In this document: in pieces, positions 21,717 through 25,848 of the stretch
Numbering within the stretch: position 1 is the first letter of the stretch
How the letters are laid out: every line of letters begins with the position of its first letter
Origin: Deltaproteobacteria bacterium
Lineage (GTDB): Bacteria; Desulfobacterota; Desulfomonilia; UBA1062
Length of the DNA stretch: 36,455 nucleotides
Reading direction: 5' to 3'
Assembly: GCA_011372875.1 (NCBI GenBank)
Contig: DSAD01000177.1
Location: forward strand, 1 to 36,455
Position numbers and translations under genes: made by a program
Notes under the pieces: generated by a model
Seen by the model: only the letters and a program-made list of their open reading frames with translations
Told to the model about the DNA's origin: nothing
Databases searched by the model: none

Positions 21717-22652
21717 ATGAAAAGGTTCTCTTATGTCTCGATGGTTCTTCTTATACTCAGTATTGTTACCGGATGCTCATCCTTCAAGAACAGCGTGTAT
21801 GATCTTGCAATCAATGCAGACCGCTCGAGGTCAGACCTTGTACCAGGCTCAATCGAGATCGATGGAGAGGCCATTGCCTACCTGGAACGCAAAGGGGACG
21901 GTGAAATCATCGTACTCATACACGGTTTCGGAGCAAACAAGGACAACTGGATCCGTTTTGTACGCCATATCCCTAAGCAGTATCGGATTGTCGCCTTTGA
22001 TATGGCAGGGCATGGCGACAACAACCGTGCTCTCGAAAAAACCTACAGTATCGACTACATCACCTCGATCTTTGCTCAGGCAGCAGACGCAATGGCCCTT
22101 GAAAAGTTCCACATTGCAGGAAATTCCATGGGGGGATACATATCCATGCTCTATACTTCAAACCATCCGGGACGTGTACATACAATGTGTCTTATAGATG
22201 CAGCAGGTCTCATAGACCAGACACCGCAGCCAAGCGATCTCCTGCTGGCACTGGAGAATGGCCAGAGCCCTTTGACGCCAACTACCCACGAAGATTACTC
22301 TGAACTGCTTGACTATGCCTTCCATAAAAGGCCGTTCATACCCTGGCCCATCATTTCCGTTCTTGCAGACAGGGCTGTTGAATCGGGCGAATTTACGAAA
22401 AAGATGTGGAAGGACTTCCACTCTGACCCTCAAGATGTCTTCGGACTGCTCCCGGGATTCGATCTTCCGGTGCTGGTTATCTGGGGAGACCAAGACAGGA
22501 TCCTCCATGTATCCACAACCGAAGTTCTCGAACGCTTCCTGCCGGATGTTGAGACAATCATCCTGAAGGACTGCGGACACATGCCCATGCTGGAAAGGCC
22601 TGAAGAGACAGCCGGGCACTATGTCTCTTTCCTGATCAGACATACACAGTGA
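21717..22652 (+). CDS. Alpha/beta hydrolase lipoprotein
   Basis: Lipobox VLLILSIVTGCS; VLIHGFGANKDNW; nucleophile elbow GNSMGGY; VIWGDQDRI; catalytic His in DCGHMPMLERPEE. RBS agaggtgg. Confidence 0.92.
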   Translation: MKRFSYVSMVLLILSIVTGCSSFKNSVYDLAINADRSRSDLVPGSIEIDGEAIAYLERKGDGEIIVLIHGFGANKDNWIRFVRHIPKQYRIVAFDMAGHGDNNRALEKTYSIDYITSIFAQAADAMALEKFHIAGNSMGGYISMLYTSNHPGRVHTMCLIDAAGLIDQTPQPSDLLLALENGQSPLTPTTHEDYSELLDYAFHKRPFIPWPIISVLADRAVESGEFTKKMWKDFHSDPQDVFGLLPGFDLPVLVIWGDQDRILHVSTTEVLERFLPDVETIILKDCGHMPMLERPEETAGHYVSFLIRHTQ

Positions 22653-22949
22653 TACTGGTGTCGGGATAAATGTCCCGTAAAGACTACCTATGCACAGGTC
22701 CATAAGCACGTGCCATAACGATCAATCAGTTCACATGGCTGACCAATCTTACACATGTAATGGCATCACCTTGACTCTGGTCCCGGAGATATTAAGCTAT
22801 ACCATATCTCTTTATTATTGTTGCAGTCCATGACATATACTTGGCCGGCCCATCAGGTCGATTAGATCAGATTTCACTGACATCTTGTCATTTGAAGTGA
22901 ATACCGGATACGCGGACATATTCGAGAGTCCGGCCGCCAGGAAAGGAAG

Positions 22950-23741
22950 ATGTCCCATGAAAAACACGATCTGGAAAAATCATACGATCACGGTCTGAAA
23001 GACCTCTGCCCTGAAGAATGGGAGACAACATTTCCCGAAATATGCCAACAGTCATGCACGGATCTTCCGCAAAAAACGGCGCTTGCCTGTAAGGGTATCC
23101 ATCTAAGCTTTGCCGAGCTGGACCGTTATGCAAACAGGTTTTCCAATATGCTCATCCTCAACGGGTTCAAGAAAGGCGATGTGGTGGGGATCAACCTGCC
23201 CAATATCCCGGAACATGTAATAGCCTGGATCGGGACCCTGCGCGCCGGATGCGTTGTCTCCGGGATGTTGATACCGGTGATTAAGAATCCCGAGGTAATG
23301 AAAAATGAGATCCTGAATTTCGCCGTTGAACGTCATGCCACTCATGAGGTTCCCGCATTCATTGAATTCAGAGATGAACTGCCGCTTACCCCTGTAGGCA
23401 AAACAGATAAAGATATATTGAGAAATGAAAACTCCCGGGGCAATGAAAGACGCAGGAATATGCGCAAGAGTGTTGACCTCCCATGTGATGTCAGACTGTC
23501 AATCAATGGCAAGGAAGCCCGGAAGCCCGGAAACATAGTCGATATAAGCACAGAGGGTATCGGTGTAGAAACCAAAGGATCTCCTGAAGCAGAAACAGGC
23601 GAGGATGCGTATATCGATATTATCCAGTTCGGAGAAACCTTCTGGCTTAAGGGTCATGTGCTCGGCCGGAAAGGAAACCGGATAGCAGTGAGGTTTATCG
23701 AAACAATCCCCGGGGAACTCAAAGAAATCCTGAGCCCATAA
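22950..23741 (+). CDS. Internally deleted AMP-dependent acyl-CoA synthetase fused to a C-terminal PilZ domain
   Basis: N-terminus resembles acyl-CoA synthetase (LPQKTALACKGIHLSFAELDRYANRFSNMLILNGFKKGDVVGINLPNIPEHVIAWIGTLRAGCVVSG), then jumps to the synthetase C-terminal end (NPEVMKNEILNFAVERHATHEVPAFIEFRDELPLTPVGKTDKDILRNE), then PilZ (RRRNMRKSVDLPCDVRLSING...NIVDISTEGIGVET...GNRIAVRFIE). Confidence 0.78.
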   Translation: MSHEKHDLEKSYDHGLKDLCPEEWETTFPEICQQSCTDLPQKTALACKGIHLSFAELDRYANRFSNMLILNGFKKGDVVGINLPNIPEHVIAWIGTLRAGCVVSGMLIPVIKNPEVMKNEILNFAVERHATHEVPAFIEFRDELPLTPVGKTDKDILRNENSRGNERRRNMRKSVDLPCDVRLSINGKEARKPGNIVDISTEGIGVETKGSPEAETGEDAYIDIIQFGETFWLKGHVLGRKGNRIAVRFIETIPGELKEILSP

Positions 23742-24024: not shown

Positions 24025-25848
24025 ATGAATGAAACTCCTGCACAGAGCCTGAAAACGATCTTCGGATACGATTCTTTCAGGCCCCATCAGAAAGAGATCA
24101 TCGACGGGCTTATCCGGGGAGAAGACGCCTTTGTACTGATGCCCACCGGGGGCGGCAAGTCGCTGTGCTATCAGATACCGGCCCTGCACAGAACGGGGGT
24201 GGGCATTGTGGTGTCCCCGCTCATATCCCTTATGAAAGACCAGGTAGACGCCTTGAATGCCTGCGGGGTAAAAGCGGCTTTTTACAATTCATCCCTGCAG
24301 AGCACCCAGGCCCGCAAAGTCCTGGCAGCGCTCCATGCCAGGGAACTCGACCTTCTGTATGTGGCCCCTGAACGTCTGATGAGCGATGGTTTTATCGAGA
24401 GGCTCAAAGATATCCCCATTGCACTGTTTGCCATTGATGAGGCGCACTGTATTTCTCAGTGGGGACATGATTTCCGGCCGGAATACCGGAAACTGGGCAG
24501 GCTGCGGAGCCTCTTCAGGAATATTCCGATGATTGCCCTGACTGCAACGGCAGAGCCTCATACACGCTCCGATATCCTGGATCGCCTGGGCCTTTCAAAG
24601 GCCACGTGCTATGTATCGGGATTCGACCGGCCCAATATTCACTATTCGGTGATGGAAAAACAAAAACCCTTCGCACAGCTCAAGGCCTTTGTGCAGACCC
24701 GCTCAGGCAGCAGCGGTATCGTCTACTGCCTGAGCCGCAAACGCGTGGACAAGGTTGCAGGACAGCTTGTTGAAGCCGGATTCTCCGCCTCTCCCTATCA
24801 TGCAGGCCTGATAGCAGCACAGCGCAAAAAAACCCAGGACGATTTCCTGCATGATAATGTCCGCATAATTGTCGCCACAGTTGCATTCGGCATGGGCATA
24901 GACAAATCCAATATCCGGTATGTCGTGCATTATGACATTCCGAAAACCATTGAAAGCTACTACCAGGAGACCGGACGTGCAGGCCGAGACGGCCTGGCTG
25001 CCGAAGCACTCCTGCTTTTCGGCTATGGTGACATCGCTGTTGCAAAAAGCCTGATCGAGAAAACAAACAACCCGGAACAAAAGCGTATCGAGCTGCACAA
25101 ACTCGGTTCAATGGTGGGTTTTGCCGAGGCCATGAGCTGCAGGCGCAGGATCCTGCTGGGTTATTTCGGAGAACGCCTGCAAGAAGATTGCGGAAATTGC
25201 GATATCTGCAATCATCCCCCCGAACTGATAGATGTAACCGAAGATGCCCGCAAAGCCCTGTCCTGTGTCTACCGGGTGGGACAGCGGTTCGGTATGGCAC
25301 ACGTGATCGACGTGCTCAGAGGTGCTCAGAAAGAACGTATCTTCCAGCTTGGTCACGACAGGCTCTCCACCTATGGAATCGGTGCGGACAAGAGCAGGGA
25401 TTACTGGACAAGTCTGCTGCGCCACCTTGTGCATCACGGTTTTCTCGAACAGGATGTGGGAGATTACTCAGTATTAAAACTGAAAACGCCTGCAAAACCC
25501 CTGCTGAGTGGTGAACAGACACTGACCATGGCCAAACCTCGTACAGAAACAATCCGTGCAGCCAGAACCGCACGCTCAAAGACCGGGGACATGGACTATG
25601 ATCAGGAGCTCTTTGAAAATCTCAAGGCCCTGCGGAAAAGACTCTCAGAAGAAGCCGGTGTCCCGCCTTTTGTCATATTCAGCGACACGTCTCTGGCGGA
25701 GATGGCAGCATATCTTCCAGAAGACCTCGATGATTTTCGCCGCATCCACGGGGTCGGCACCCATAAACTGAAACGTTACGGCCCGGACTTTCTCGAAGAG
25801 ATTCTGAGATTTACACGCAACAATACAGAACGGACAGGAGAGAGGTAG
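24025..25848 (+). CDS. recQ: ATP-dependent DNA helicase RecQ
   Basis: FRPHQKEIIDGLIRGEDAFVLMPTGGGKSLCYQIPAL, DEAHCISQWGHDFRPEYRKL, TATAEP, QETGRAGRDG, RQC Cys cluster CRRRILLGYFGERLQEDCGNCDIC, C-terminal HRDC. Confidence 0.97.
   Translation: MNETPAQSLKTIFGYDSFRPHQKEIIDGLIRGEDAFVLMPTGGGKSLCYQIPALHRTGVGIVVSPLISLMKDQVDALNACGVKAAFYNSSLQSTQARKVLAALHARELDLLYVAPERLMSDGFIERLKDIPIALFAIDEAHCISQWGHDFRPEYRKLGRLRSLFRNIPMIALTATAEPHTRSDILDRLGLSKATCYVSGFDRPNIHYSVMEKQKPFAQLKAFVQTRSGSSGIVYCLSRKRVDKVAGQLVEAGFSASPYHAGLIAAQRKKTQDDFLHDNVRIIVATVAFGMGIDKSNIRYVVHYDIPKTIESYYQETGRAGRDGLAAEALLLFGYGDIAVAKSLIEKTNNPEQKRIELHKLGSMVGFAEAMSCRRRILLGYFGERLQEDCGNCDICNHPPELIDVTEDARKALSCVYRVGQRFGMAHVIDVLRGAQKERIFQLGHDRLSTYGIGADKSRDYWTSLLRHLVHHGFLEQDVGDYSVLKLKTPAKPLLSGEQTLTMAKPRTETIRAARTARSKTGDMDYDQELFENLKALRKRLSEEAGVPPFVIFSDTSLAEMAAYLPEDLDDFRRIHGVGTHKLKRYGPDFLEEILRFTRNNTERTGER

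Follow-up and report, generated by a model that had tools for sequence, protein, structure and literature searches.

The 36,455-nt stretch of a Deltaproteobacteria genome analyzed here (the window) contains a 263-aa open reading frame, confirmed at positions 22950-23741 of the forward strand, that opens like an AMP-forming acyl-CoA synthetase (ACS), jumps to the C-terminal end of the same family and continues into a PilZ domain. Such a frame raises the question of whether it encodes a reduced protein, derives from an intact synthetase-PilZ fusion that has since lost its core, or was created by assembly.

Domain make-up and extent of the missing core

Pfam searches with the whole protein and with its separate pieces returned the three parts in the order read by the original prediction. 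The AMP-binding profile (PF00501) matched residues 33-104 through profile positions 2-74 of 384 only (E 5e-17), and AMP-binding_C (PF13193) matched residues 112-151 through the profile end only, positions 36-76 of 76 (E 0.006; E 0.001 for the piece alone, a match under the curated cut-off). This second remnant is 81% identical over 47 aa to the C-terminus of the synthetase in G002, a genome of the same genus as the window. The best NCBIfam matches of the synthetase remnant are long-chain-fatty-acid--CoA ligases. The PilZ match (PF07238, residues 166-259; E 6.5e-10) scores 39.7 bits, above the curated cut-off of 22.5, and includes RRNMR (RxxxR, residues 168-172) and DISTEG (DxSxxG, residues 198-203), the motifs by which c-di-GMP-type PilZ domains are defined (PMC10333796, PMC12943098). 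The open frame is not a product of chance, since the other two forward frames across the same stretch contain 17 and 16 stops. A phmmer search of the PilZ piece against the PDB gave no match, and a single-sequence AlphaFold model of the 263-aa ORF was uninformative (mean pLDDT 35.6). The features of the locus are collected in Table 1.

Table 1. Features of the ORF region and its flanking genes in the window
Feature	Position	Strand	Basis
Flanking alpha/beta-hydrolase, synteny anchor common to G002	21717..22652	+	
Shine-Dalgarno-like AGGAAG	22944..22949	+	sequence; conserved in G002
Fortuitous ATG opening the 263-aa frame; G002 has GTG there	22950..22952	+	alignment to G002
Orthologous start and present 13-aa reading (MKNTIWKNHTITV, stop)	22957..22998	+	G002 alignment; translation
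Frameshift lesion: A-run of 5 in the window vs 6 in G002	22975..22979	+	DNA alignment
Synthetase N-terminal remnant (residues 11-105)	22980..23264	+	PF00501 match; 75% identity to G002, 95 aa
Core-deletion junction (residues 106-107), frame preserved	23265..23270	+	alignments to G002, G020
Synthetase C-terminal subdomain remnant, A10 motif at end (residues 107-158)	23268..23423	+	weak PF13193
PilZ domain (residues 166-259), RxxxR and DxSxxG motifs	23445..23726	+	PF07238
Flanking RecQ helicase, synteny anchor common to G002	24025..25848	+	

ANL acyl-CoA synthetases are defined by an adenylation core carrying motifs A3 (YTGGTTGxPKG), A5, A7 and A8, and in the window the profile match stops at position 74 of 384. 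The missing part amounts to 403 residues when compared with the 675-aa protein of G020 and to at least 395 when compared with G002, close to the 350-400 residues that had been expected from the family; it corresponds to ~1.2 kb of catalytic core spanning adenylation motifs A3-A8. The A3 motif is absent from the window protein and was found in G020 and in the second of two copies in G010. The A10 GK is still there (PLTPVGKTD), within a subdomain reduced to its last ~47 residues and bearing the non-conservative changes L129H, P131T, Y132H, K136A and K155D. The window copy resembles FadD-like ANL synthetases (PF00501 and PF13193) in ~95 N-terminal residues and in the A10 end; its intact relatives are complete, whereas nothing of the core is left in the window copy, neither the nucleotide-binding A3 nor A5-A8, and its enzyme activity has presumably been lost. 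A move of the core to another place in the genome was considered and rejected: the best own-genome matches share 33-44% identity and are other synthetases. The same genome yielded no second ACS-PilZ copy.

Full-length ACS-PilZ fusions in related genomes

In the 60 genomes searched as relatives, ACS is joined to PilZ in three besides that of the window, and these include the full-length homologues that the original prediction had proposed to seek. G020 encodes the fusion in one contiguous frame, 675 aa counted from the ATG, and G010 encodes two such genes in tandem, each read contiguously; AMP-binding, AMP-binding_C and PilZ are all complete in the fusions of both genomes. Adenylation motifs and the RxxxR/DxSxxG motifs of PilZ are present in G020 and in the second G010 copy. 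The first G010 copy has an altered A3 (YTQGSAGAPRG) and GR, not GK, at A10, and judging by these residues may be catalytically impaired. The solved structures to which the G020 protein comes closest belong to fatty-acyl-, feruloyl-, malonyl- and 4-coumarate-CoA ligases. The second G010 copy is a 967-codon open frame (L118:5632-8535) with the order ACS-PilZ-SRPBCC(Polyketide_cyc2)-PilZ and lies immediately behind the ACS-PilZ gene with the altered A3 and A10.

The gene order around the G002 ACS-PilZ is that of the window, with a histidine kinase and an alpha/beta hydrolase upstream and RecQ downstream. Contig C211 of G002 carries the kinase, the hydrolase, a Vut_1-like frame and the ACS, which leaves the contig end past the A8 region; contig C132 starts with the ACS C-terminus and PilZ, followed by RecQ. 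Because the flanking genes match and the two contig ends are ~8 codons apart when judged against G020, we infer that C211 and C132 join and that the G002 gene is an intact orthologue split by an assembly gap. The contiguous fusions of G020 and G010 and this syntenic gene with core and PilZ support the earlier proposal that an intact synthetase-PilZ fusion existed, of which the window copy lost the core. The Vut_1-like frame between hydrolase and synthetase in G002 has 180 codons (PF02592, L116:3215-3757); the window has only ~140 bp there (22646-22789). G001, also of this genus, harbors a decayed, PilZ-less relative of the synthetase at another place (L120:4837-5865); it has suffered two internal deletions, and an in-frame TGA replaces a Trp that is otherwise conserved.

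Lesions, rates of change and status of the window copy

The frame was predicted to stay open through PilZ, and it is indeed unbroken from residue 11, but a frameshift follows its native start, a second lesion that had escaped the original prediction, and the start given in the ORF list is a fortuitous one. In G002 the gene begins ATG AAA AAT ACG ATC TGG AAA AAA TCG (MKNTIWKKS). The window A-run, in codons 7-8 counted from the orthologous ATG 22957, is one base short, and translation from this ATG consequently stops after 13 aa. The Shine-Dalgarno-like sequence is spaced 7 nt from ATG 22957 and 0 nt from the listed ATG 22950. The frame from ATG 22950 differs from that of ATG 22957; it opens with MSHEKHDLE, which is the old N-terminus read out of frame, and enters the correct frame by accident past the missing base, so that the open frame from this ATG is partly accidental. 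An open frame is thus not equivalent to an intact gene at this locus, where an accidental upstream ATG masks a frameshift.

Relative-rate tests with G020 as the outgroup assigned 21 amino acid changes in the synthetase remnants to the window and 3 to G002 (binomial p 0.0003). The window lineage is not fast overall, since the corresponding counts in the neighboring genes are 13:16 for RecQ and 13:12 for the hydrolase, from both of which the remnants differ (Fisher p 0.0016 and 0.012, respectively), and the excess on the window branch kept its direction with four other outgroups. Among the window changes, P14H, F39L, I52L, A65S, L117M, L129H and K136A occur where G002, G020 and both G010 copies are invariant, and changes at first and second versus third codon positions of the synthetase parts stand at 26:24 on the window branch versus 5:19 on that of G002. 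PilZ, which is 82% identical to that of G002, is not accelerated, with small window:G002 counts of 3:3, 1:3 or 5:2 depending on the outgroup (the multiple alignment with G020 gave 5:2). The dN/dS comparison proposed for the PilZ part gave 0.22 against G002, with 0.11 for the N-terminal remnant, 0.20 for the A10 remnant and 0.10-0.16 for the neighbors, but these pairwise values average in the time preceding the damage and are less telling than the relative-rate counts.

These observations suggest that the ORF is probably a pseudogene, in which a formerly full-length ACS-PilZ fusion is decaying. Compared with the intact orthologue it carries two disabling lesions, the missing A and the ~403-residue core deletion, and relaxed constraint is seen in its synthetase parts and not in PilZ. 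It shares a near-start frameshift, a core deletion and a relaxed remnant with bacterial pseudogenes that have suffered a large internal deletion, and differs from them in a downstream PilZ that is as yet without detectable relaxation. The frame unbroken from residue 11 to the stop and the unaccelerated PilZ with both its motifs count against a long-dead gene; that PilZ is still recognizable would mean that decay is recent, or that some PilZ is still produced. Also counting against a pseudogene is the uneven dS to G002, which is 1.24 in the N part (22980-23264) and 0.49 in the C part (23283-23738), with neighbors at 0.45-0.83. In principle, each of the two lesions might also stem from an error in the assembly or in its consensus.

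The original prediction had also offered a reduced protein kept as a PilZ effector, in which the synthetase part would be dead weight and PilZ would still be translated as a small stand-alone c-di-GMP effector, from ATG 22950 or from a start farther inside the ORF (ATG 23265 or 23298, for example). We consider this unlikely. The retained RxxxR and DxSxxG motifs, the Pfam score, the identity of PilZ to that of G002, the lack of a window-lineage excess in its changes and the frame open through into PilZ all speak for it; the small PilZ counts, however, also fit a recent loss, and the start region argues the other way. ATG 22950 lies directly against AGGAAG, the well-spaced ATG 22957 leads to the 13-aa dead end, the internal candidates are poorly spaced upstream, and no well-placed start for a PilZ-only product was found. 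Furthermore, the same reduced form was found in no other genome among the 395 searched from the phylum. A 119-codon stand-alone PilZ protein, an example of a PilZ-only product, is encoded elsewhere in the same genome (L172:1477-1833, reverse strand, contig C3).

Even less credible is an assembly or consensus artefact, in which the real gene would be a full-length ACS-PilZ and both the missing core and the missing A would have been made in assembly. The window genome is a draft of 292 contigs, the G002 contigs also break within the gene, and the deletion happens to preserve the frame. Nevertheless, an artefact would require two independent errors within one gene, would not accelerate amino acid change in the remnants while the neighbors are balanced, and is at odds with a core that is not stranded on another contig. 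The notion of an ordinary hypothetical ORF whose N-terminus resembles synthetases by chance has a negligible probability and is refuted by the AMP-binding match (E 8e-18 when the N-terminal piece is searched by itself) and by its identity to the N-terminus of the G002 synthetase in the syntenic place.

Distribution of the fusion and its putative regulation by c-di-GMP

The joined form, searched for with the A10 and PilZ profile, occurs in 4 of 24 family genomes (G002, G010, G020 and, as a relic, that of the window), and was found neither in the rest of the 42-genome class nor in the other genomes of the 395 from the phylum. In 28 related loci of other lineages, four of which have a frame cut by a contig end or by a stop ahead of the C-terminus, no fusion was found and the complete frames end directly at A10. 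Related synthetases in Deltaproteobacteria and Lokiarchaeota records end directly after A10, as do typical ANL members, including close unfused relatives. In G011, which belongs to the same genus as G020, the gene for such a close relative without the fusion likewise stands tail to tail with a thiolase-like gene, and PilZ must therefore have been gained or lost here between G011 and G020. The adenylation-domain tree groups the unfused G011 protein with those of G002 and G020 at 100/99, and is compatible with one gain followed by loss or with several gains. A search of open-licence papers found no description of an ACS-PilZ fusion, and the intact protein is apparently an undescribed enzyme architecture.

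By itself, the window gene represents ordinary genome decay; the greater interest lies in the intact fusion, in which a fatty-acyl-CoA synthetase bears a c-di-GMP receptor domain at its mobile end. Catalysis by ANL enzymes needs rotation of the C-terminal subdomain. PilZ sits directly behind the A10 motif via a short linker in the intact fusions, and its movement could therefore affect this rotation. In the intact relatives, c-di-GMP would be bound by the PilZ attached after the mobile C-terminal (A10) subdomain, the ensuing movement of PilZ would hinder or favor rotation, and the altered subdomain movement would turn acyl-AMP/acyl-CoA formation up or down. Putative c-di-GMP control of acyl activation in these relatives is plausible. 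Were the synthetase gated by PilZ, fatty acids would enter metabolism under direct allosteric control by c-di-GMP, and the intact fusions in a few relatives could tie this messenger directly to lipid metabolism.

Cellulose synthase BcsA is an example of a PilZ-enzyme fusion. As in such effector-enzyme fusions, ACS-PilZ carries a PilZ of the c-di-GMP-binding type on a catalytic domain; the window copy departs from them in that its catalytic partner is destroyed. PilZ is often found within multidomain enzymes, whose catalysis it influences (reviewed in PMC10333796), and is also known from PilZ-DnaK chaperones in Myxococcus (PMC10313047) and PrsW-PilZ in Leptospira (PMC12943098).

Other enzyme-PilZ fusions were detected in the same group, making a regulatory role more credible than it would be from a single fusion. 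Two genes from its ACS-PilZ, G002 encodes an NAD-dependent epimerase/3-beta-HSD-like protein with a C-terminal PilZ (L115:2-1489, forward strand, open at the contig end), and in G001 an acetoacetate-decarboxylase-like domain (PF06314, E 2e-7) is followed by PilZ (L177:1102-2358). Similar-looking PilZ proteins are encoded in G001 (L176:1088-2230), where the decarboxylase-like domain did not score, and in G002 (L178:1973-3115). We tentatively entertain a lineage-specific set of c-di-GMP-gated lipid/CoA enzymes, arisen by repeated attachment of PilZ within this family, in which the second messenger might directly switch fatty-acyl metabolism and of which the window copy would be a decayed member; the partners of PilZ in this speculative set would be acyl-CoA synthetase, the epimerase/3-beta-HSD-like dehydrogenase, the acetoacetate-decarboxylase-like domain and SRPBCC (in ACS-PilZ-SRPBCC-PilZ). 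Contig C42 of the window genome also holds a 494-codon frame (L175:358-1839, reverse strand) with an N-terminal PilZ match and a putative C-terminal SAM-dependent methyltransferase.
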